Shown here: in pieces, positions 3,166 to 60,623 of the stretch
Numbering within the stretch: the first letter of the stretch is position 1
Layout of the letters: every line of letters begins with the position of its first letter
NCBI GenBank assembly: GCA_018262985.1
Contig: JADFDI010000001.1
Span: forward strand, 451,027 to 515,026
Source: Spirochaetota bacterium
Lineage (GTDB): Bacteria > Spirochaetota > Spirochaetia > Treponematales > UBA12059
DNA: 64,000 bases
Reading direction: 5' to 3'
Notes under the pieces: model-generated
Told to the model about the DNA's origin: nothing
Databases searched by the model: none
Seen by the model: the letters and a program-made list of their open reading frames with translations, nothing else
Made by a program: the position numbers and the translations under genes

Positions 3166-6100
3166 CTAGTCCTCGTAGACCCGTAGGCCGGAAATGTCCC
3201 GTCCGTCCGAGCGTTTCTTCAGTAGCGGGACCAGGTCGCGCATGAGGGCCTCTTCCTTGCGCGCGCGTTCCTTCCAGCCGAGCTCCAGGGGCTCGAGGAG
3301 TTCGGTGAGCGCCTCGCCGTCGAATATCTTCCGGCCGAGGACGTCGTCGACGAAGGCCGCGAGCGCGGCCTCGGGTACGCCGTGCTTTCCGGCGAGCCCG
3401 GCGAGCTCGCGGGCGGCCTTCTCCGCCTTGAAAGCCTGGTAGCCAGAGCGGATGGCGGCCTCGTCGAGACCCTCGCCGGCCTTGAGGCCGCGGACGTACT
3501 CGGTGATGTCCTCGCGCTCGTCGAGGAATTTCGAGTCGGAGGCGATCAGGCCGATGAGCTCCTCGCGGCTCATGGTCGCCTTGCCGGGCTTCTTGGCGGA
3601 GAAGTCGGCGATGAGCTTCATTATGTAGTCGTAGTCTATGGTTGCCGAGGCGAAGAGGACGAACTCGAAATCGAGCTCCTTGAGCACCTCGCTCGTTTCC
3701 TCCCAGGGCCTGTCCTGCAAGGCCCTGAGGCGCTGGGCGGTCTCGAGGTAGACCCCGCGGAACGCGTAGAGTTCGTCCTTGGGAAGGATCGCCTCGATCT
3801 CCGCTTCCTCCCCGGAGCTGAGGTCGGTGTATTGGTCGAGCTGGGTCTGGAGCCGTTGCACTTCCTTGAAGCACTTGACGAAGGCGGTCTTCGCCTCGTC
3901 CCCCCTGAGGTTGTGGACCTGCTCGGGCGAGGCGTCGAGCCCCTGGCTTCTCATGAAGCTGTCGAGCTCGGCCTTGGCGGCCTTGAGCCGTTCGATGACC
4001 ACCGGGGCCCGGTCGACGAGCCAGATCGTGCGGGCCTGCTCGGCCTTGACCCCGGAGAAAAGCGCGATGGCCGCGTCCACGGCTTCCTGCTGGCCGCGGA
4101 AGTCGAGGATGTTGCCGTAGGGCTTGGTGTCGTTGAGCACGCGGTTGGTGCGGCTGAAGGCCTGGATGAGGCCGTGGTGCCTGAGGTTCTTGTCCACGTA
4201 GAGGGTGTTGAGGTACTTGGAGTCGAAACCGGTGAGGAGCATGTCGACCACGATGGTGATGTCGATCTTCTCCGCTCCCCGGAAGGGCAGGTCGGCGTCG
4301 GGGTATTGCTGGTCCTTGATGCGCTTCTGGACGTCCTGGTAGTAGAGGTCGAAGTCGGCCACGCGGTGGTTGGTGCGGAAGCGCTCGTTGTAGCCGGCGA
4401 TGATACGTTCCAGGGCCTTCTTCTTGCCGTCGGGGTCGTGTTTGTTGTCCTCCGCTTCCTGGGGGAGGTCCTCCTGGAGCTGGCGCACGTCGGGGCTCAC
4501 GTCGGCCGGCGGGGAGAATACGGCGGCGACGGCCAAGGGGACGAAGGGGACGCCCAACGCACGTCTCTCGGCCTGGACCTTCTCGAAGAGGTCGTAGTAC
4601 TCGATGGCGTCGTTGATGGAGGCCGTGGCGAAGAGGGCGTTGAACTTGCGTCCGCCCGTGGCGGCGACGTGCTTGCCGAGGATGGCCTCGACGACGGCCC
4701 GCTTGGCGACCGGTTCGCCGGGCCTGGGAAGGGTCGTGCCGTCGGCCTTGTAGTAATCGACGTGGAAGCGGAGCACGTTCCGGTCTTCGATGGCGTGGGT
4801 GATCGTGTACTCGTGCAGGGACTTCTGGAAGAGGTCGGCCGTGGTCGCGAGAGTCTTGGTCTCGCCCTCGATGCGCTTGTAGCTCGAGTTTTCCTCGAAG
4901 ATCGGCGTGCCGGTAAAACCGAAGAGCTGGGCCTTGGGAAAGAACTCCCGGATGGTCCGGTGGGTTTCGCCGAATTGCGAGCGGTGGCATTCGTCGAAGA
5001 TGAATACCAGGCGCTTGTCGCGCAGGGGCGCGAGCAAGTCGGAGAAGCTCTCGCGTCCGTTTTTCTCGCGACCTTTGTTGCGCGCGCCGTTCTCGTCGAG
5101 GGCAAGGCCGAGCTTCTGGATGGTGCAGACGATGACCTTGTCGGCCTTGTCGTCGGAGAGGAGGCGGCGGACGAGGGCGCCGGTATCGGTATTCTCCTCG
5201 ACGCAGCCCTCCTGGAAGCGGTTGAACTCCTCGCGGGTCTGGCGGTCGAGGTCCTTGCGGTCCACCACGAAGAGGCACTTCTCGATGCCCGGGTCAGCCT
5301 TGAGGAGGGTGGAAGCCTTGAAACTGGTGAGGGTCTTTCCCGAGCCGGTGGTGTGCCAGATATAGCCGTTGCCCAGGTTCTTCTCGATGCACTCGACGAT
5401 GTTCTTGACGGCGTAGATCTGGTAGGGCCGCATCATGAGGAGCTTCTGCTCGCTGGCCACGAGGACCATGTAGCGGCTGAGCGTCTGACCGAGCGTGCAC
5501 TTGGCGAGGAATGCGTCCGCGAAGCGGTCGAGGCCGTTGATCTTGGCGTTGTCGGGGGCGGCGTGCTGGTAGATCGGGAGGAAGCGCTCGTCGGCGTTGA
5601 AGCTGAAGTGCCGTGCGTTGTTGTTGGCGAAGTAGTAGGTGGAATCGCGGTTCGAGACGATGAAGAGCTGCACGAAGCACAGGAGGGTCCCCAGGTAGCC
5701 GTTGCCCGGGTCGTTCTTGTACTCGACGATCTGCTCGATCGCCCGGCGGGGATTGATGCCCAGGGTCTTGAGCTCGACCTGGACCGCGGGCACGCCGTTT
5801 ATCAGGATGAGTACGTCGTAGCGGTGGTGGCTGTAGTCGGTGTTTATCCTGAGCTGGCTCACCACCTCGAAACTGTTCTTGCACCAGTCGTCGATATTGA
5901 CCAGGGTGTAGTTGAGGGGCGTGCCATCGTCCCGGATGAAGGCGTTGCGGTTCCTGAGCGTGTAGGCGGCGGCGAATACGTCGGGGCTGATCATGTCCGC
6001 GAGCAGGCGCTCGAACTCGCCGTCGGTAAGCCTGACCCGGTTGAGCTCCTGAAACTTCTCGCGGAAGTTGCTCTCGAGCGTCAGGCGGTCATGGATGTCC

Positions 6101-6630: not shown

Positions 6631-6705
6631 TCGCGAATCGCTCCGCGATTCGCGGCGACGAGCTGCCGCTCGTCGATCTCACGTAACGGCATGGGCGGCA
6701 GCAAT

Positions 6706-6758: not shown

Positions 6759-6782
6759 TCAGTAATCCATTCCCCCCATGCC
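6759..6782 (-). repeat. groEL 3'-end copy 2 (codes GMGGMDY-stop)
   Basis: On the minus strand the bases read Gly-Met-Gly-Gly-Met-Asp-Tyr-TGA. Codons differ from the true gene end (GAT for Asp, TGA for stop), so this is not a recent exact copy. It lies 158 bases downstream of the real groEL stop. An inverted copy of the tail motif stands at 6840-6861. Confidence 0.8.
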
Positions 6783-6839
6783 GCGCGAAGGGCGGTTGCC
6801 ATTCGCGGCGCCGAACTTCGTTCGGCGATTTTCTGAGAC

Positions 6840-11447: not shown

Positions 11448-14339
11448 ATGGCGCACACCCGCCTCGCCTTCGCGGCCGCCTTCGCGGCCGCGCTTCTTTT
11501 CATTTCCTGTCCCGGCGATGTGGACGGCGAGTATTCCTTCGACGCGCCCTTCGGGGACGCGCCCGAGGCCGCTCCCGGTTTCTGGCGTTCGGGCGGCGCG
11601 CCCGCGCTCGTCGAGGTCACGGCCGAAGCCTGGGCCTCCGGTCCCGCCGCGGGCGGTCCGGCCGGCGCGGTGGCGTTCCGCGACGAGTTCGACGCGTTCG
11701 ACCGCGCCTCCTGGTACGCCGTCGAGGAAAAGACCGGCGCCGACGCCATGGGCCGGCTCGCCGCATCGGGCGGCGCGCTCGTGATCTCCACCAAGGACGT
11801 GGACCGCAATCCCTTCGTCTACGGCAAGGCCTTCCCCATGCCCGCGTCGGGAACGGTGCGGGTCACGCGGCGCGCGCGGATCAGCTACGCCAACGACTAC
11901 TTCGCCGGCGGTTTCTTCCTCCAGCAGGCGGACGCCGAGATCCCGAAAGCGGGCGTCGCCGAACCCGCCCTGGTCGGCGTCCTCCACGTCAACTTCAGCT
12001 ACGATCCCGGGCGCTATCCCCTGACCAAGGGCTTCGTCGCCGTCACCGACGGCTTCAAGGCCCCGGGCACCTTCGCGACCATCGAGAACGCCCCCTTCGG
12101 ACAGTGGATCGAGGAAACCCTGGTCTACGAACCGGCCACCGGCAAGGCGGCCTACATCCTGGACGGCGTCGAGTACCCCATCGCCGCGGCGCCAGCCTCG
12201 AAGCCGTATTTCCGCGTCGCCATGAACGCGTACGGCTGGTACACGGGCCACAGGGCCGAGGTGGACTGGATCGGCGTGGAGACGCTCGCGCCCGCCGCGG
12301 CGGCCCCGGGCTTCGGCGCCGGCACCGAACTCGTCTCGCGCCGCCTCGAGCCTTCCGAGGACGCGATCGTGGTCGAGGCGCGCGACGTGAAGGTCACCCT
12401 GCCGCCGCTCGCCCTCGACTCGGCGCAGGACTTCCGCGTTACCGCGCTCGGCTCCGGTTCGGGAGCCCTGGCGGCCTGGGACGTCGACTGCGGAAGCGTC
12501 ACGAGCTTCGATTCCTTCCTCGAGATCGAGCTGCCGTATCCGGACGCCTCGGCCCTGCCGGGCGAAAAGCCCGCGGACAAGCTCATCGCGGTCACCTGGG
12601 ATCCTGAGTCCGGGGCGTGGCGCCAGGAGCTGGCCGAATTCCGCGACGACCGCGCCGTCGTCCGCATGGACCACCTGACCACCGTCGCCCTGGCCCCGCG
12701 AGGCGACGCGCCTTCGAGCGAGCTGGCCGAATTCGTCGCGGAGACCGCCGACGTCGGAGGCCTCTCGAAGGCCGACGTCCTCAATGACGCCTGGCAGTCG
12801 CTGGTGGAGGGCGCGGGCTGGGCCGGCACCGCGGGCGATTGGACGTCCATGCTCGCGGAACTTCCCGCCCTCGAAAAGCTGAACGGCGAGCTCGAGCGGA
12901 TCGGCGATGCGGCCGTTTACGTCGACATCCTCCAGAAGGTCATGGCGGGCGACACGGAAGCGCTCAAGCAAACCGCCATCGACATGGCCCTGTCCTGGGC
13001 GGGCGGCAAGATCACCGACGCCCTGGCCGCGACCGGCTACCAGATCGCCTCCATCGGCACCTTCGCCATCGACTATTCGCTCAACACCTTCGCCACGACC
13101 CTGCTCGACGCGGAATTCCGCGCCTACGAATGGGCCTACCAGGAGTTCTACCGCGAGTACGAGCGGACCCTGCCCGAGTGGTACGACCTGGTGACGCGCA
13201 TCCTCCAGCGCGCCGACAACCCGCAAAACGCGCGCGCCATGCTCTACGCCGAATTCGGCGCGCACGCGGAGAAGCTCTGGCTCTACCAGAGCTCCGACTA
13301 CGACAAGTGGACCGACTTCGACTCGATGGTCGCGGAGGCCAAGGACAGCCGCGTCGGCGTCACCCTCAGCCTGACGCCCGAAGTCAAGGAGAAGATCTCC
13401 GCCAACTACAAGGCCGTGCTGGCCCAGCGCCTGACCGCGGTCATCGCGCGCGCGGCGGAGAACGTGCGCACCAGGCTCGTCAAGTACCAGTACGGCTACC
13501 AGCGCGACGCCGAACGCTACCTCCGGAACGAGGCAACGATCCGCGTCGCCGTCACGGGCATGGGCGAGGGCCAGCGCGTCCGCGCCGCGCTCTACCGCGG
13601 CGACAAGAAGCTCGTGCAGTCTCCGGCCATCTTCGCGGACGGCGAGCTCGTCATCGCCGCCCCGCTCGAGTTCTTCCTCGAGAAGGGCGCGCCCGACCGC
13701 GTCGTCTACTGGGTGGGCACCGAGAAGGGCGGCAAGCGGAGCAGCGAGTATTTCTCGGAGGAATTCCGCATCGGGTCGCTCGTGTCGGAGCTCTCCTTCA
13801 GGCTCGGGAATCCGCCCGAGAAATTCGACCTCCCGAAAAAGGCGGACGACGACAAGGTTAAGCCGGAAGAAAAGTCCGCCGGCGCGGACGTGGCGGCGGA
13901 CAAGTCCGCCGCGGGCAAGGAGCTCGCCGTCGACAAGTCCGGCGGAACTTCCGACGCCCCGCCCGGGACCTCCGGCAAGGACGCGGTGACGACCGGCGGC
14001 TCCGACGCCCTTCGTTGGGAGCTCCGCGGCGAGGACCTTCTCATCACCCTGACCGAAACCACCACGGTCGACTCCGGCACCGATCACAGCTACTGGCTCG
14101 GCACCGATTTCAACGACGGAGAGAAGCGCTACGAGGGGGCTTCCTTCGCGGGCTACGCGCGCGTCAAGAAGGAGGCCGCCGGGCAGAACGCCTACGGCTA
14201 CGATCGCTGGCTCATCGTCGAGGAGATCAAATTCAAGGTCGCCCGACCGAAGGGCGACAGCGTGCGGCTTTTCCTCTGGGTGAAGTCCGCGCAGGGTTCG
14301 GTATGGGTGCACAAGACCACCGTGCGCCTCGATCCGTAA
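11448..14339 (+). CDS. Large surface lipoprotein of unknown function
   Basis: The 963-residue product starts with a signal peptide and lipobox (LLFISC, Cys about residue 24), so it should be lipid-anchored outside the inner membrane. Residues about 75-285 look like a concanavalin/LamG-type beta domain (FRDEFDAFDRASWY ... AEVDWIGVETL). A middle part is helical and acidic. A Lys/Ala/Asp-rich linker follows around 800-850 and a small beta domain ends the protein. No catalytic motif is recognised. The next gene carries a related beta domain and starts 6 bases after this stop, so the two probably act together. The GGAGGA site and promoter fix the start. Confidence 0.75.
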   Translation: MAHTRLAFAAAFAAALLFISCPGDVDGEYSFDAPFGDAPEAAPGFWRSGGAPALVEVTAEAWASGPAAGGPAGAVAFRDEFDAFDRASWYAVEEKTGADAMGRLAASGGALVISTKDVDRNPFVYGKAFPMPASGTVRVTRRARISYANDYFAGGFFLQQADAEIPKAGVAEPALVGVLHVNFSYDPGRYPLTKGFVAVTDGFKAPGTFATIENAPFGQWIEETLVYEPATGKAAYILDGVEYPIAAAPASKPYFRVAMNAYGWYTGHRAEVDWIGVETLAPAAAAPGFGAGTELVSRRLEPSEDAIVVEARDVKVTLPPLALDSAQDFRVTALGSGSGALAAWDVDCGSVTSFDSFLEIELPYPDASALPGEKPADKLIAVTWDPESGAWRQELAEFRDDRAVVRMDHLTTVALAPRGDAPSSELAEFVAETADVGGLSKADVLNDAWQSLVEGAGWAGTAGDWTSMLAELPALEKLNGELERIGDAAVYVDILQKVMAGDTEALKQTAIDMALSWAGGKITDALAATGYQIASIGTFAIDYSLNTFATTLLDAEFRAYEWAYQEFYREYERTLPEWYDLVTRILQRADNPQNARAMLYAEFGAHAEKLWLYQSSDYDKWTDFDSMVAEAKDSRVGVTLSLTPEVKEKISANYKAVLAQRLTAVIARAAENVRTRLVKYQYGYQRDAERYLRNEATIRVAVTGMGEGQRVRAALYRGDKKLVQSPAIFADGELVIAAPLEFFLEKGAPDRVVYWVGTEKGGKRSSEYFSEEFRIGSLVSELSFRLGNPPEKFDLPKKADDDKVKPEEKSAGADVAADKSAAGKELAVDKSGGTSDAPPGTSGKDAVTTGGSDALRWELRGEDLLITLTETTTVDSGTDHSYWLGTDFNDGEKRYEGASFAGYARVKKEAAGQNAYGYDRWLIVEEIKFKVARPKGDSVRLFLWVKSAQGSVWVHKTTVRLDP

Positions 14340-51600: not shown

Positions 51601-51902
51601 CGGCGCGCCCGGATGGAACGGGCCGCTTCGTCGGCAAGATACCCGGCGGCAAGCTCCTCAAGCTCGACGCGGAATACGCAGGCGGCCGCTTGGCGCGGGT
51701 GCGCATACGGGGCGACTTCTTCGCCCATCCGGAGGAAGCCTTCGACCGCGTCGAAGCCGCGCTCCAGGGAGTCGACCCGGCCGATTTTGCCAGGCTGCTC
51801 CGCGAGGCCGTGGCGCGCGAGGGCGTCATCATCTACGGAGTCGGCGTCGACGACATGGTCGACGCCTTCGAGAGGGCGAGCGATGCGATTCAGGTTCCTT
51901 GA
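51597..51902 (+). CDS. lplB: Lipoate-protein ligase accessory (C-terminal) subunit, LplB-like
   Basis: The 101-residue product matches the small C-terminal domain of lipoate-protein ligase A, here as a free subunit: VGKIPGGKLLKLDAEYAGG near 12, ARVRIRGDFFAHPEEAFDRV near 33. In Thermoplasma and others this domain is a separate protein needed for lipoate activation together with the catalytic half. GTG start within the lipA stop. It overlaps the catalytic-half gene by 20 bases. Confidence 0.87.
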   Translation: MTARPDGTGRFVGKIPGGKLLKLDAEYAGGRLARVRIRGDFFAHPEEAFDRVEAALQGVDPADFARLLREAVAREGVIIYGVGVDDMVDAFERASDAIQVP

Positions 51903-52641
51903 AACCGGCGCGGGTACGGCCGCGTTCAACATGGGCCTCGACGAGGCCGTGCTCGAGTCGGTCGCCGCGGGAGCCGCGCCTCCCACCCTGCGCTTCTACC
52001 GCTGGGAGCCGCGCGCAGTCTCAGTGGGCTACTTCCAGGGCCTCGAGGAGGAGGTGGACCTCGAGGCCTGCGCGCGCGCGGGCGTCGACGTGATCCGGCG
52101 CGCCACGGGAGGCGGCGCCGTGTATCACGCGGCCGAGCTGACCTACTCGATCGTCGTCCCGGAGGACCACCCGCTCGTCCCTCGCGACGTCCTCGAGTCC
52201 TACTGGATACTGTGCCGGGGCGTCATCGAGGGGCTCGGGCGGCTCGGCGTAAAGGCTGACTTCGCGCCGCTGAACGACGTGATAACGGGCGGGCGCAAGG
52301 TGTCGGGGAACGCGCAGACCCGCAAGCTGGGCTGCGTGCTCCAGCACGGCACCGTGCTCCTCGAGGTCGACGTGGACGAGATGTTCGGCCTGCTGAAAGT
52401 GCCGCAGGAGAAGCTGCGCGGCAAGCTGATCGAGGACGTCAAGCAGCGGGTCACCAGCGTCTCGCGCGAGCTGGGGCGGACGATCGGCTACGCGGAGTCG
52501 CTCGACGCGTTCAAGGAAGGCTTCGCGGTCGCCCTCGCGGCCGAGCTCGAGCCGGCGGCGCCGACGGAGCGGGAACTCGCGCGCGCCGCGGAAATCGCCG
52601 CGGAAAAGTACGCCAACCCCGCCTGGAACCGCAAGCGCTGA
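51883..52641 (+). CDS. lplA: Lipoate-protein ligase catalytic subunit
   Basis: It attaches lipoate (or octanoate) to lipoyl domains. The 252-residue product has the cofactor transferase motifs: FNMGLDEAVLESV near 14, VIRRATGGGAVYHAAELTYS near 68, NDVITGGRKVSGNAQ near 127 with the catalytic Lys, and KLGCVLQHGTVLLE near 144. It lacks the C-terminal accessory domain, which is encoded by the gene just upstream, so the active ligase is a two-part enzyme. Together with LipA this gives both synthesis and salvage. No lipB is in the window. A repeat array begins right after its stop. Confidence 0.93.
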   Translation: MRFRFLETGAGTAAFNMGLDEAVLESVAAGAAPPTLRFYRWEPRAVSVGYFQGLEEEVDLEACARAGVDVIRRATGGGAVYHAAELTYSIVVPEDHPLVPRDVLESYWILCRGVIEGLGRLGVKADFAPLNDVITGGRKVSGNAQTRKLGCVLQHGTVLLEVDVDEMFGLLKVPQEKLRGKLIEDVKQRVTSVSRELGRTIGYAESLDAFKEGFAVALAAELEPAAPTERELARAAEIAAEKYANPAWNRKR

Positions 52642-52657
52642 TATCCGTCGGAACCTT

Positions 52658-53014
52658 CGTCAACGGCGCGGAGCGTCCTCCACAGGAGATCGACGAACCG
52701 ACGGTTCGTCGCCGTCAACGGCGCGCAGCGTCCTCCACAACAGATCGACGAACCGACGGTTCGTCGCCGTCAATGGCGCGGAGCGTCCTCCACAGGAGAT
52801 CGACGAACCATCGGTTCGTCGCCGTCAACGGCGCGCAGCGTCCTCCACAGAAGATCGACGAACCATCGGTTCGTCGCCGTCAACGGCGCGGCGCGTCCTC
52901 CACGGAGGATCGACGAACCATCGGTTCGTCGCCGTCAACGGCGCGCAGCGTCCTCCACAACAGATCGACGAACCAACGGTTCGTCGCCGTCAACGGCGCG
53001 CAGCGCCGTTGACG
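52658..53014. repeat. Tandem array of 55-bp palindromic units (6 full copies and a partial)
   Basis: Copies start at 52658, 52713, 52768, 52823, 52878 and 52933; a seventh, broken copy starts at 52988. Each unit has a variable-free frame CGTCAACGGCGCG...GCGTCCTCCAC and a 21-base palindrome CGACGAACC-nnn-GGTTCGTCG. Centres differ (GAC, ATC, AAC). Odd copies carry GCGGAG or GCGGCG and a small CTCC/GGAG hairpin; even copies carry GCGCAG and mostly CAACAG. The array ends with a perfect 12-bp hairpin (52988-52999 with 53003-53014), one base before the next gene's stop codon. The 55-base period is not a multiple of three. Confidence 0.95.
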
Positions 53015-53015
53015 C

Positions 53016-53825
53016 CTAGTCCGCGGCGACGCCCGGGTCCGCGCGGAGCAGGGCGGCCAGCAGGGGTCGCGCGCCGCCCGCGTACCGCTCCGCCGCCGCT
53101 TCCGCTTCGGCCGCCTTCGCGAAAGCCTCCTCGGCGATCACCCGCACTTCGAACAGGTCCTCGAGGTCGTCGCGCCAGCGGATGATCCGCGCGGCGTAGT
53201 CGAGCGTGCTCCGGGGCGTGCCGCCCTTGCCGACGCGGGTCAGGCCCGCGTTGTAGATGGCCAGCGCCGCCACCTCGTTCTTCCCCTGGTCGAGGCTGAA
53301 GTCCAGGTGCGCCACGCCGAGCCGGATATTGGTGGGGATGTCGTAGAAATCGGCGATCGCGAGCTTCGGGAAGCTCTTCGAATTGAGCTGGAAGAGGCCC
53401 CGATCCACCGAGTCCGCGTTGCGGTTCAAGGCCCGCGGGTTGAAGCGGCTCTCCTCCCAGGCCACGGCGAACGCCAGCGCCGGCGGCACGTCCCGCTTCG
53501 CCGCCTCCTCCAGGATCAGGCTGGCGATCTGCGGCGACCCGGTCAGTTCGGCGAAGAAGCCGATCACGATCGGCCGGGTGGCCTCGTCCGCGTGGAAGGC
53601 GGCGATGCGGTCTCCCGTTTCGCGCTTGCCGAGCTTCTCGGCCATGCCGCGAGCGGGCAGGCCGGCATAGCGCTCGTAGATGGCCGGCAACCAGGGCTCG
53701 GCTTCCTCGGTCGCGCCGGAATTCCCGCGGTACGCGAAGATCAGCGCTATCAGCATCGCCGCCGCCGCGATGGGCGCGATCGGCGCGGGGTGGTGCAGCT
53801 TGGGCGGCTTGTTGTCCGTGGGCAT
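53016..53825 (-). CDS. Membrane-anchored lytic transglycosylase (SLT domain)
   Basis: The enzyme cleaves peptidoglycan glycan strands in the periplasm. The 269-residue product has an N-terminal anchor (IAPIAAAAMLIALIFAY, residues 15-32) and an SLT/lysozyme-like domain: FAVAWEESRFNPRALNRN near 118 with the catalytic Glu, DRGLFQLNSKSFPKL near 140, IRLGVAHLDFSL near 165 and ALAIYNAGLTRVGKGG near 186. An Ala/Glu-rich helical tail follows. Its promoter lies upstream at 53907-53934. The stop codon touches the 55-bp repeat array. Confidence 0.9.
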   Translation of the reverse strand: MPTDNKPPKLHHPAPIAPIAAAAMLIALIFAYRGNSGATEEAEPWLPAIYERYAGLPARGMAEKLGKRETGDRIAAFHADEATRPIVIGFFAELTGSPQIASLILEEAAKRDVPPALAFAVAWEESRFNPRALNRNADSVDRGLFQLNSKSFPKLAIADFYDIPTNIRLGVAHLDFSLDQGKNEVAALAIYNAGLTRVGKGGTPRSTLDYAARIIRWRDDLEDLFEVRVIAEEAFAKAAEAEAAAERYAGGARPLLAALLRADPGVAAD

Positions 53826-58413: not shown

Positions 58414-59710
58414 AATCCTCGTCATACTCGCGCTCATCCTCGTCAACGGCTTCTTCTCCCTCTCGGAGATGGCCGTCGTCTCGTCGCGCAAGGCCCGGCT
58501 CAGGCAGCGGGCCGAGGAAGGCCACAAGGGCGCCCGCATGGCCCTCGAGACCGCCCAGAACCCCGGGCGTTTCCTCTCGACCATACAGATCGTCATCACC
58601 ATGGTCGGAGTCATGGCCGGCGCCTTCGGCGGCGCCACGGTGGCCGAGGAACTCCGCGACTCCTTCCTCGCCGCCGGCCTGCGCGCGGACTTCGCCGAGC
58701 CCCTGTCCATGGGCATCGTGGTGGTCGCCACCACCTTCCTCTCGGTCGTGTTCGGCGAGCTCGTGCCCAAGAACCTCGCCCTCGGCCGCCCCGAGCTCAT
58801 CGCCGGCTTCGTCGCCTGGCCCATGCGCGTTTTCTCCGTCCTCTTCGCCCCGGTGGTCAAGGTGCTCTCCGCGACGACCGACCTCGTCATGCTGCTGCTC
58901 CGCGCTCGGGGGGCCGAGGAGCCTCCCGTGACCGAGGAGGAGGTAAAGGTCCTGATCGCCCAGGGTACCGAGACCGGCATCTTCGACGCGCGGGAGAAGG
59001 AGATGTTCGAAGGCGTGCTCTACCTGGGCGACCGCCGCGTCACCACCTTCATGACTCCGCGCACGGACATCGCCTACCTGGAAAAGGGCGAGGGCGCGGA
59101 GGAGCTGGCCGCGGCCATCCTCGAGCACGCCCGCTACGCCAACCTGCCCCTCGTCGACGGCGACCTCGACCACGTGGTCGGCATGGTGTCGGTGAAGTCG
59201 GTGCTGGCGTCGATCGCGCGCGGCGAGTTCCGGGGCGTCGAACCCTTCGTCGAGACGCCGCTCTTCGTGCCGGAGACCCTCGGCGCGCTCGACCTGTTCT
59301 CCCGGCTCAAGGAGCACCGCTGCAAGAGCGCCGTCATCATCGACGAGTACGGCGGCGTGGCGGGCATGGTCACGTTCTCCGACCTGGCGGAGGCCATACT
59401 CGGGGAGGTCGCCGAGGCCGAGGTCCAGGACGAGCCCGACGTGGTCAAGCGCGATGACGGCAGCTACCTGGTGGACGGCGGCCTTTCCATCGACGACTTC
59501 GCGGAGTATTTCGGCTTCGAGGAGGACGAGTTCGGCGGCGACTACGAAACGGTCGCCGGCCTCGTGCTCGAGGGGCTCGGCTGCATTCCCAAGGTGGGCG
59601 ACCGCTTCGCCTGGAAGAGCGTCGGCATCGAGGTGATGGACATGGACGGCAATCGCGTCGACAAGGTGCTGGTCACGCCCGCGCCGGAGCCGGAAGGCGC
59701 CGCCCTCTAG
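58403..59710 (+). CDS. CNNM/CorC/HlyC-type membrane protein with CBS domains
   Basis: These proteins act in magnesium (or cobalt) transport or resistance. The 435-residue product has a DUF21/CNNM membrane domain (residues about 3-185: LEILVILALILVNGFFSLSE, IQIVITMVGVMAGAFGGA, FGELVPKNLALGRPE), two CBS domains (FMTPRTDIAYLEKGEG near 213, VIIDEYGGVAGMVTFSD near 310) and the C-terminal CorC_HlyC domain (YLVDGGLSIDDFAEYFGFEE, VAGLVLEGLGCIPKVGDRF). All parts are present. It starts with GTG at 58403; the small upstream frame overlaps it. It often gets the name hemolysin, which is not meaningful. Confidence 0.92.
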   Translation: MALEILVILALILVNGFFSLSEMAVVSSRKARLRQRAEEGHKGARMALETAQNPGRFLSTIQIVITMVGVMAGAFGGATVAEELRDSFLAAGLRADFAEPLSMGIVVVATTFLSVVFGELVPKNLALGRPELIAGFVAWPMRVFSVLFAPVVKVLSATTDLVMLLLRARGAEEPPVTEEEVKVLIAQGTETGIFDAREKEMFEGVLYLGDRRVTTFMTPRTDIAYLEKGEGAEELAAAILEHARYANLPLVDGDLDHVVGMVSVKSVLASIARGEFRGVEPFVETPLFVPETLGALDLFSRLKEHRCKSAVIIDEYGGVAGMVTFSDLAEAILGEVAEAEVQDEPDVVKRDDGSYLVDGGLSIDDFAEYFGFEEDEFGGDYETVAGLVLEGLGCIPKVGDRFAWKSVGIEVMDMDGNRVDKVLVTPAPEPEGAAL

Positions 59711-59772
59711 CCGCCGCCCGCCGTCCCCGGCCGCCCTCTAGCCGCCGCCCGCCGTCCCCGGCCGCCCTCTAG
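59699..59772. repeat. 31-bp tandem repeat with CTAG stop codons at the convergent junction
   Basis: GCCGCCCTCTAG occurs at 59699-59710, 59730-59741 and 59761-59772, separated by two identical 19-base pieces (CCGCCGCCCGCCGTCCCCG). The TAG of the first copy ends the CorC-type gene; the CTAG of the third copy, read from the other strand, ends the znuB-like gene. Confidence 0.9.
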
Positions 59773-60623
59773 CCCCGGCCGCCGCGGGTGCGGGCGGCGC
59801 GCGCGGCCTGCGTGGCCAGGAACACGCCTCCGGAAAGCACCACCACCACCGCGCCCGCCGGCAGGTCGAGCTCCCAGGCCAGCGCGAGGCCGCCGGTCGA
59901 AAACGCCGCGGCCAGCAGGGTCGACAGGAGCATCATGCGCTTCAGGTTGCGCGATCCGCCCGAGGCGGTGCCGGCGGGCAGGGTCAGCATGGCGATGACC
60001 AGCACGATGCCCACGAAGGTCGAGAGCAGCACCACCGAAACCGCCACCGCGCCGAGTATCCCGAGGAACACGGCGTCCGTGTTCACGCCGCGGGTGCGCG
60101 CGAACTCCTCGTCGAACGAGGCGGCCTCGACCTGCGCGTAGAAGCGCCAGGCGAGGGCGACCATGACGAGGTCGAGGACGGCCACCATGGCCAGGTCGCC
60201 CGAACCCACGAGCAGGATATTGCCGAACAGGTAAGCCATCGGATCCGCGTAACCGGGCGTCCGCGCCAGGAAGAGGACGCCGATGGACATGCCGATGGCC
60301 CAGATGGCGTTGATGACGGTGTCCTCGCGAGCCTTGGCCTTGAGCGAGACGACCCCGACCAGCGCGGCCGCGAGCAGGGCGAAGGCGAGGGCCCCGACCC
60401 GGGGCGTGAGCCAGGGCGCGATTCCCGAGGCTTTGAGGAAGAGCGCCAGGCCGACGCCGCCGAGGACCGCGTGGCTGATGGCCCCCGCGAGTCCCGCGAT
60501 GCGGCGGACCGTGACCACGGACCCCACCACGCCGAACAGCACCGACGAGAGCAGCCCCATGGCGAGCGCGTTGCGCACGAAGGGCAGGGACGGATCGAAC
60601 AGCGCCTCGATGAAGCCCGTCAC
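59769..60623 (-). CDS. znuB: ABC metal importer, membrane subunit (ZnuB/TroC-like)
   Basis: The permease of a zinc or manganese importer (ABC-3 family). The 284-residue product has about eight membrane helices and the family motifs: NALAMGLLSSVLFGVVGSVV near 17, GAISHAVLGGVGLALFL near 48, AYLFGNILLVGSGD near 130 and FVGIVLVIAMLTLPAGTA near 201 (residue numbers from the GTG). The GTG at 60621-60623 overlaps the znuC stop, so translation is coupled; an upstream in-frame ATG exists within znuC. Metal choice between Zn and Mn is not decided by the sequence. Confidence 0.9.
   Translation of the reverse strand: MTGFIEALFDPSLPFVRNALAMGLLSSVLFGVVGSVVTVRRIAGLAGAISHAVLGGVGLALFLKASGIAPWLTPRVGALAFALLAAALVGVVSLKAKAREDTVINAIWAIGMSIGVLFLARTPGYADPMAYLFGNILLVGSGDLAMVAVLDLVMVALAWRFYAQVEAASFDEEFARTRGVNTDAVFLGILGAVAVSVVLLSTFVGIVLVIAMLTLPAGTASGGSRNLKRMMLLSTLLAAAFSTGGLALAWELDLPAGAVVVVLSGGVFLATQAARAARTRGGRG

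Follow-up and report, generated by a model that had tools for sequence, protein, structure and literature searches.

A 55-bp tandem array between convergent genes of a Spirochaetota bacterium is probably an amplified copy of a dispersed double-hairpin repeat

The window analyzed here is a 64,000-nucleotide stretch of contig JADFDI010000001.1 (positions 451,027 to 515,026 of the forward strand) from a Spirochaetota bacterium (GCA_018262985.1). Within it, a lipoate-protein ligase gene (LplA/LipB; 51883–52641, plus strand, stop TGA; PF21948, E 1.7e-52) and a lytic transglycosylase gene (53016–53825, minus strand, stop TAG; PF01464, E 1.5e-16) converge on a tandem array at 52658–53014 (minus strand), which was delimited from the sequence, inverted repeats, Tandem Repeats Finder and a covariance model. 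The array takes up nearly all of the 374-bp intergenic gap (52642–53015), with 16 bp free to its left and 1 bp to its right, as a first-pass annotation made from the letters alone had proposed. Tandem Repeats Finder places 6.3 copies of a 55-bp period at 52658–53005 (92% matches, score 570), the highest score among tandem arrays of the window. A 21-bp palindrome, CGACGAACC-N3-GGTTCGTCG, occurs six times in the array at a spacing of 55 bp, and no mismatch-free occurrence was found outside the array in the 3.44-Mb genome. An unrelated second tandem array, with a 31-bp unit in 2.8 copies and 96% matches, lies at 59699–59784.

Read on the minus strand, the array has the form L [L' - hairpin B - spacer]n L', where n is 6. 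The TAG stop codon of the lytic transglycosylase gene is abutted by the element and followed by hairpin A with a stem of 12 bp, hairpin B with one of 9 bp, GATC, and a spacer, after which the array repeats starting at the right arm of hairpin A. Unit 1 (52963–53017; 71.5 bits, E 2.8e-12) comprises the TAG, hairpin A, a CGGCG link, hairpin B and CGATC. It holds the complete hairpin A at 52988–53014 (inverted repeat I22), a perfect 12-bp stem with a 3-nt loop, one base from the minus-strand stop codon at 53016, exactly as had been described. The remaining units were recovered with the covariance model on the same strand at 52908–52962 (unit 2, 52.1 bits), 52853–52907 (unit 3, 51.1 bits), 52798–52852 (unit 4, 51.9 bits), 52743–52797 (unit 5, 50.4 bits) and 52688–52742 (unit 6, 53.1 bits), and the last spacer and closing L' arm form the far end of the array at 52658–52687.

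Units of the array differ among themselves. The alternation of GCGG and GCGC noted in the first-pass annotation holds for units 1–6 but not for the partial seventh unit, which carries GCGC like unit 6. The suggestion drawn from it, that the ancestral unit of doubling measured 110 bp, finds no support in sequence identity, which is 90.7% at a lag of 55 and 91.5% at a lag of 110. The first-pass annotation was right that the array is neither coding nor a CRISPR, for the whole 55-bp unit repeats and the unique spacers that separate constant CRISPR repeats are missing. Folded as single-stranded RNA, the array region is far more stable than its dinucleotide shuffles (z -8.7). No promoters were found within the array gap, and a search of Rfam returned no match in the window, the array giving far sub-threshold matches only.

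BLAST searches of the array against its own genome and relatives returned diverged sister arrays and single copies. In each repeated unit two different hairpins follow one another head to tail; in an alignment of 16 copies, hairpin A precedes hairpin B, and the CGGCG link, the CGATC tail and the foot of hairpin B are invariant. Stem letters vary among loci with pairing kept, and 89% of alignment cells are paired, a percentage biased upward because the 16 copies were chosen as hairpins. Stem covariation reached 0.263 compared with 0.108 in shuffled alignments; none of 500 shuffles was as high, and slid controls did not exceed 0.082. Orthologous copies provide support for pairing that is independent of how the 16 copies were chosen, since at three pairs of loci (L116/L164, L112/L163 and L115/L167) the element is present in both species and its stems differ by compensatory changes on both arms. 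The letters after the TAG likewise vary (CGTC, CGTG, CGCC, CGCG) and form base pairs within hairpin A. Dispersed units with compensating stem changes imply that what is conserved is the pairing and not a single operator sequence. The window holds a further member of the family at 6631–6678 (plus strand; 49.1 bits, E 2e-7) and a weaker one beside it at 6781–6830 (plus strand; 35.6 bits, E 1.5e-4), both from the covariance model. These two copies occupy a gap between tandem genes and have related flanks (CCATTCC... / ...GGCATGGG).

The covariance model matched the window genome at 87 places and two congeners at 48 and 26; a second genus of the same family contributed 46, 62 and 27 matches from three species, and there the core is the same and is followed at some sites by an inverted B-like hairpin. 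Each of 33 other relatives has 0–3 matches, and most genomes of the same spirochaete family lack the double-hairpin repeat. A phylum-wide search of 247 genomes under stricter filters matched the window's own genome only. Candidates outside Spirochaetota, from a pattern scan of contigs, were rejected; among the matches listed, most belong to one conserved coding motif and the rest are scattered singles that do not have the A+B build. We found no account of the repeat in the open literature that was searched; a 2025 survey lists REPs for three named spirochaetes.

Comparison of copy number among sister genomes, which the first-pass annotation had proposed, revealed filled and empty versions of the window locus: six units in the window genome, one in G001 (Spirochaetales bacterium Zod_Metabat.547) and none in G002 (Spirochaetes bacterium RA.bin126). 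These and all other unit numbers derive from metagenome assemblies (G001, G002) or a draft of 22 contigs (the window genome), in which assembly may have gone wrong at arrays of identical units, although those of the window array are not identical to one another; a regular-expression count that gives five rather than six units for the window array was disregarded there. In G002 the empty site consists of a single CTAG that provides the stop codons of both genes, one on each strand (GGACTAGCGC), and in G001 the single unit is bordered by CTAG and TTAG, so that no clear target-site duplication can be recognized. Unit numbers also differ at other orthologous loci, with five and one units at L110 and L160, seven, one and two at L113, L162 and L180, four to five, one and one at L115, L167 and L181, and two and one at L118 and L159. 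At L113 (~5300–5730) and L162 (~14000–14215) the 3' end of a gene has been duplicated in tandem together with a terminator-like hairpin, and the duplicated gene ends in G001 hold the double hairpin as well.

Among the three species, the element at L114 and L124 is present in the window genome alone. The last sense codon at both loci is identical in all three, followed by TAG where the site is filled and by TGA or TAA where it is empty, and neither locus has an evident target-site duplication. The six-unit array at L121 and the copy at L207 are likewise absent from both sisters. At one orthologous convergent site (L119/L178) the element has opposite orientations in two species, through either inversion or independent insertion. 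These differences show gain or loss, amplification, and turnover of the repeat. The empty sites are most simply read as evidence of insertion; in a comparison of three species, precise loss may be the alternative at single sites.

Placement relative to genes was analyzed with a simple codon-based gene caller in 1.3 Mb from the three congeners. The first-pass annotation had regarded scatter of the unit through many genes as evidence against a binding site; the unit is indeed scattered through the genome, but none of 85 repeat clusters lies inside a gene. Clusters favor gaps between convergent genes (45 convergent, 31 tandem and 5 divergent, compared with 64, 262 and 144 among 470 element-free gaps; convergent 45/81 vs 64/470, p 3e-15). 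TAG is the stop codon in 37 of 59 genes that end within 60 bases of an element and in 219 of 930 genes elsewhere (p 8e-10). Thirty-eight clusters abut a stop codon by their hairpin-A side in sense orientation, and at all larger distances together an upstream sense gene was recorded for just 17 more. Copies away from stop codons have mixed orientation (26 antisense, 17 sense). TAG directly precedes hairpin A in 31/38 copies that abut a stop codon and in 1/54 others, and the tetranucleotide before hairpin A is GTAG in 3/32 copies. The covariance model itself contains the TAG letters, which gives stop-abutting copies an advantage of a few bits; 60 of 92 listed copies have no TAG, so these letters do not explain the peak at distance zero. 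The borders of copies away from stop codons define one subfamily with a short common upstream stretch and otherwise only the A+B core, and thus no full-length parent element emerged. A separate dispersed repeat of the approximate form GGCGGCGTG...CGAACCCGGC...GGCCGATCCGCG often lies beside such copies (L176, L191, L194, L200, L201 and L204).

The repeat is dispersed yet absent from coding DNA, conserves its pairing, abuts stop codons, and differs among species in presence and unit number. In our judgment, the array probably arose by amplification of one copy of a mobile extragenic palindromic repeat belonging to the broad REP/BIME class. At the window locus, a single copy would have landed at the CTAG that holds the stop codons of both converging genes, without altering either protein. 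Slippage or unequal recombination between the repeated L' arms would then have raised the number of units to six, which we infer as the simplest account of tandem growth.

We file the double-hairpin repeat as a composite repeat of REP/BIME kind with head-to-tail arrays. In the broad sense of that class it is a short, dispersed, extragenic palindrome (87 matches, no cluster in a gene) that lies near 3' ends in convergent and unidirectional gaps; it falls outside the GTAG and CGTC super-families as defined in PMC3733652, whose tags it does not carry. As described in PMC3733652 and PMC8266576, GTAG-REPs and BIMEs of E. coli, Pseudomonas and Stenotrophomonas likewise number tens of extragenic palindromes per genome, lie downstream of genes with a preference for convergent gaps, often supply a TAG stop, and form clustered copies that are patchy among related species. 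Unlike them, the double-hairpin repeat has no conserved unpaired GTAG tag and no linked RAYT gene, consists of two different hairpins in fixed order, and forms head-to-tail arrays, whereas GTAG families have few or no head-to-tail dimers. CGTC-REPs of Alphaproteobacteria (PMC3733652) resemble it in being extragenic palindromes mostly near gene 3' ends that have no dedicated transposase, and CGTC repeats were reported in Spirochaetes in that 2013 paper. They have an unpaired CGTC end, 8–9 bp stems and CCA tails and form mostly head-to-head dimers, whereas here the CGTC-like letters are variable and paired in hairpin A, the tail is CGATC, and the invariant parts are CGGCG and CGATC. MITEs of the Correia/NEMIS, ERIC or RUP type are similar to the single-copy form, whose end arms L and L' are inverted and which has an empty-site counterpart, but we found here no fixed terminal repeat sequence, parent insertion sequence or clear target-site duplication.

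A more specific version, in which a resident Y1 transposase (RAYT-type, HUH) mobilizes the repeat as a REP and the TAG is a degenerate GTAG tag, appears unlikely. Such enzymes act on single-strand hairpins as substrate (PMC8266576), six Y1_Tnp genes are present in the window genome, the placement of the repeat is REP-like, and TAG stands directly 5' of hairpin A in most stop-abutting copies. Against this, the TAG is nearly confined to those copies and the tetranucleotide is GTAG in just 3/32. Of 34 Y1 loci, none has a confident element within 1.5 kb and one has a weak 25-bit match nearby, and several Y1 genes carry GGGACAGA repeats of their own. G017 has 27 elements and no Y1 gene that we could find, whereas G008 has six Y1 genes and two weak elements, and in a weakly resolved tree the Y1 genes from genomes that have the element do not group as a single clade. 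Neither Y1 counts, flanks nor the tree linked a transposase to the double-hairpin repeat. Repeats of the form GGGACAGAGCT, several in a row, adjoin Y1_Tnp genes at L025 (1210–1400), L026, L028, L144 and L145, and this separate family may be the real partner of the adjoining transposases.

Less probable still is that the repeat is not mobile and is instead a host RNA element under selection at gene ends, either a (bidirectional) transcription terminator or a 3'-end stabilizer. Sense copies right after stop codons, the preference for convergent gaps, strong conservation of pairing, and a weakly T-rich stretch after hairpin B at three units speak for such an element. However, an intrinsic terminator has a GC-rich hairpin followed by a T run, and the usual T run is missing from the element. 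At L114, L124 and L129, terminator-like hairpins, mostly with T-rich tails, stand downstream of the element and also occur in relatives that have no intact element, indicating that the element is an addition between stop codon and terminator rather than the terminator itself. Furthermore, the repeat is missing from most genomes of the same family, orthologous sites such as the window site in G002 are empty with no replacement of any kind, and copies away from stop codons have mixed orientation. The remaining proposal, that of the first-pass annotation, of a locus-specific operator array for a dimeric DNA-binding protein, a roadblock or a chromosome-organizing site, is highly improbable, for although six near-identical palindromes stand at even 55-bp spacing in a form unique to this locus and the invariant foot of hairpin B could be a candidate binding motif, the unit is dispersed in the genome, the sister species have one unit or none, and sister arrays and orthologous single copies carry other palindrome letters with pairing kept, which makes a fixed-sequence operator unlikely.

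Situated between stop codon and terminator, the element probably forms a structured 3' UTR in the transcript, and by analogy with REPs it may influence how stable the mRNA is or how translation terminates. In E. coli, ribosome stalling has been reported for REPs located within 15 bases of a stop codon (work cited in PMC12306157), and stalling by hairpin A, which starts 0–1 base past the stop, is plausible by the same analogy. The ends of published REPs often supply TAG stops (PMC3733652). Tentatively, and with the odds leaning against it, the double-hairpin repeat could make up a super-family of its own among mobile palindromic repeats, one that inserts exactly at a stop codon, supplies a TAG that leaves the protein unchanged and then grows in tandem, moved by an enzyme not so far known to act on repeats of this kind. 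How CGTC repeats spread with no dedicated transposase is stated as an open question in PMC3733652. The empty, single-copy and multi-copy versions found here, together with the stop-codon junctions and a two-hairpin substrate, make target choice and amplification directly testable. In sister species, the double-hairpin repeat has rewritten the 3' ends of dozens of genes.
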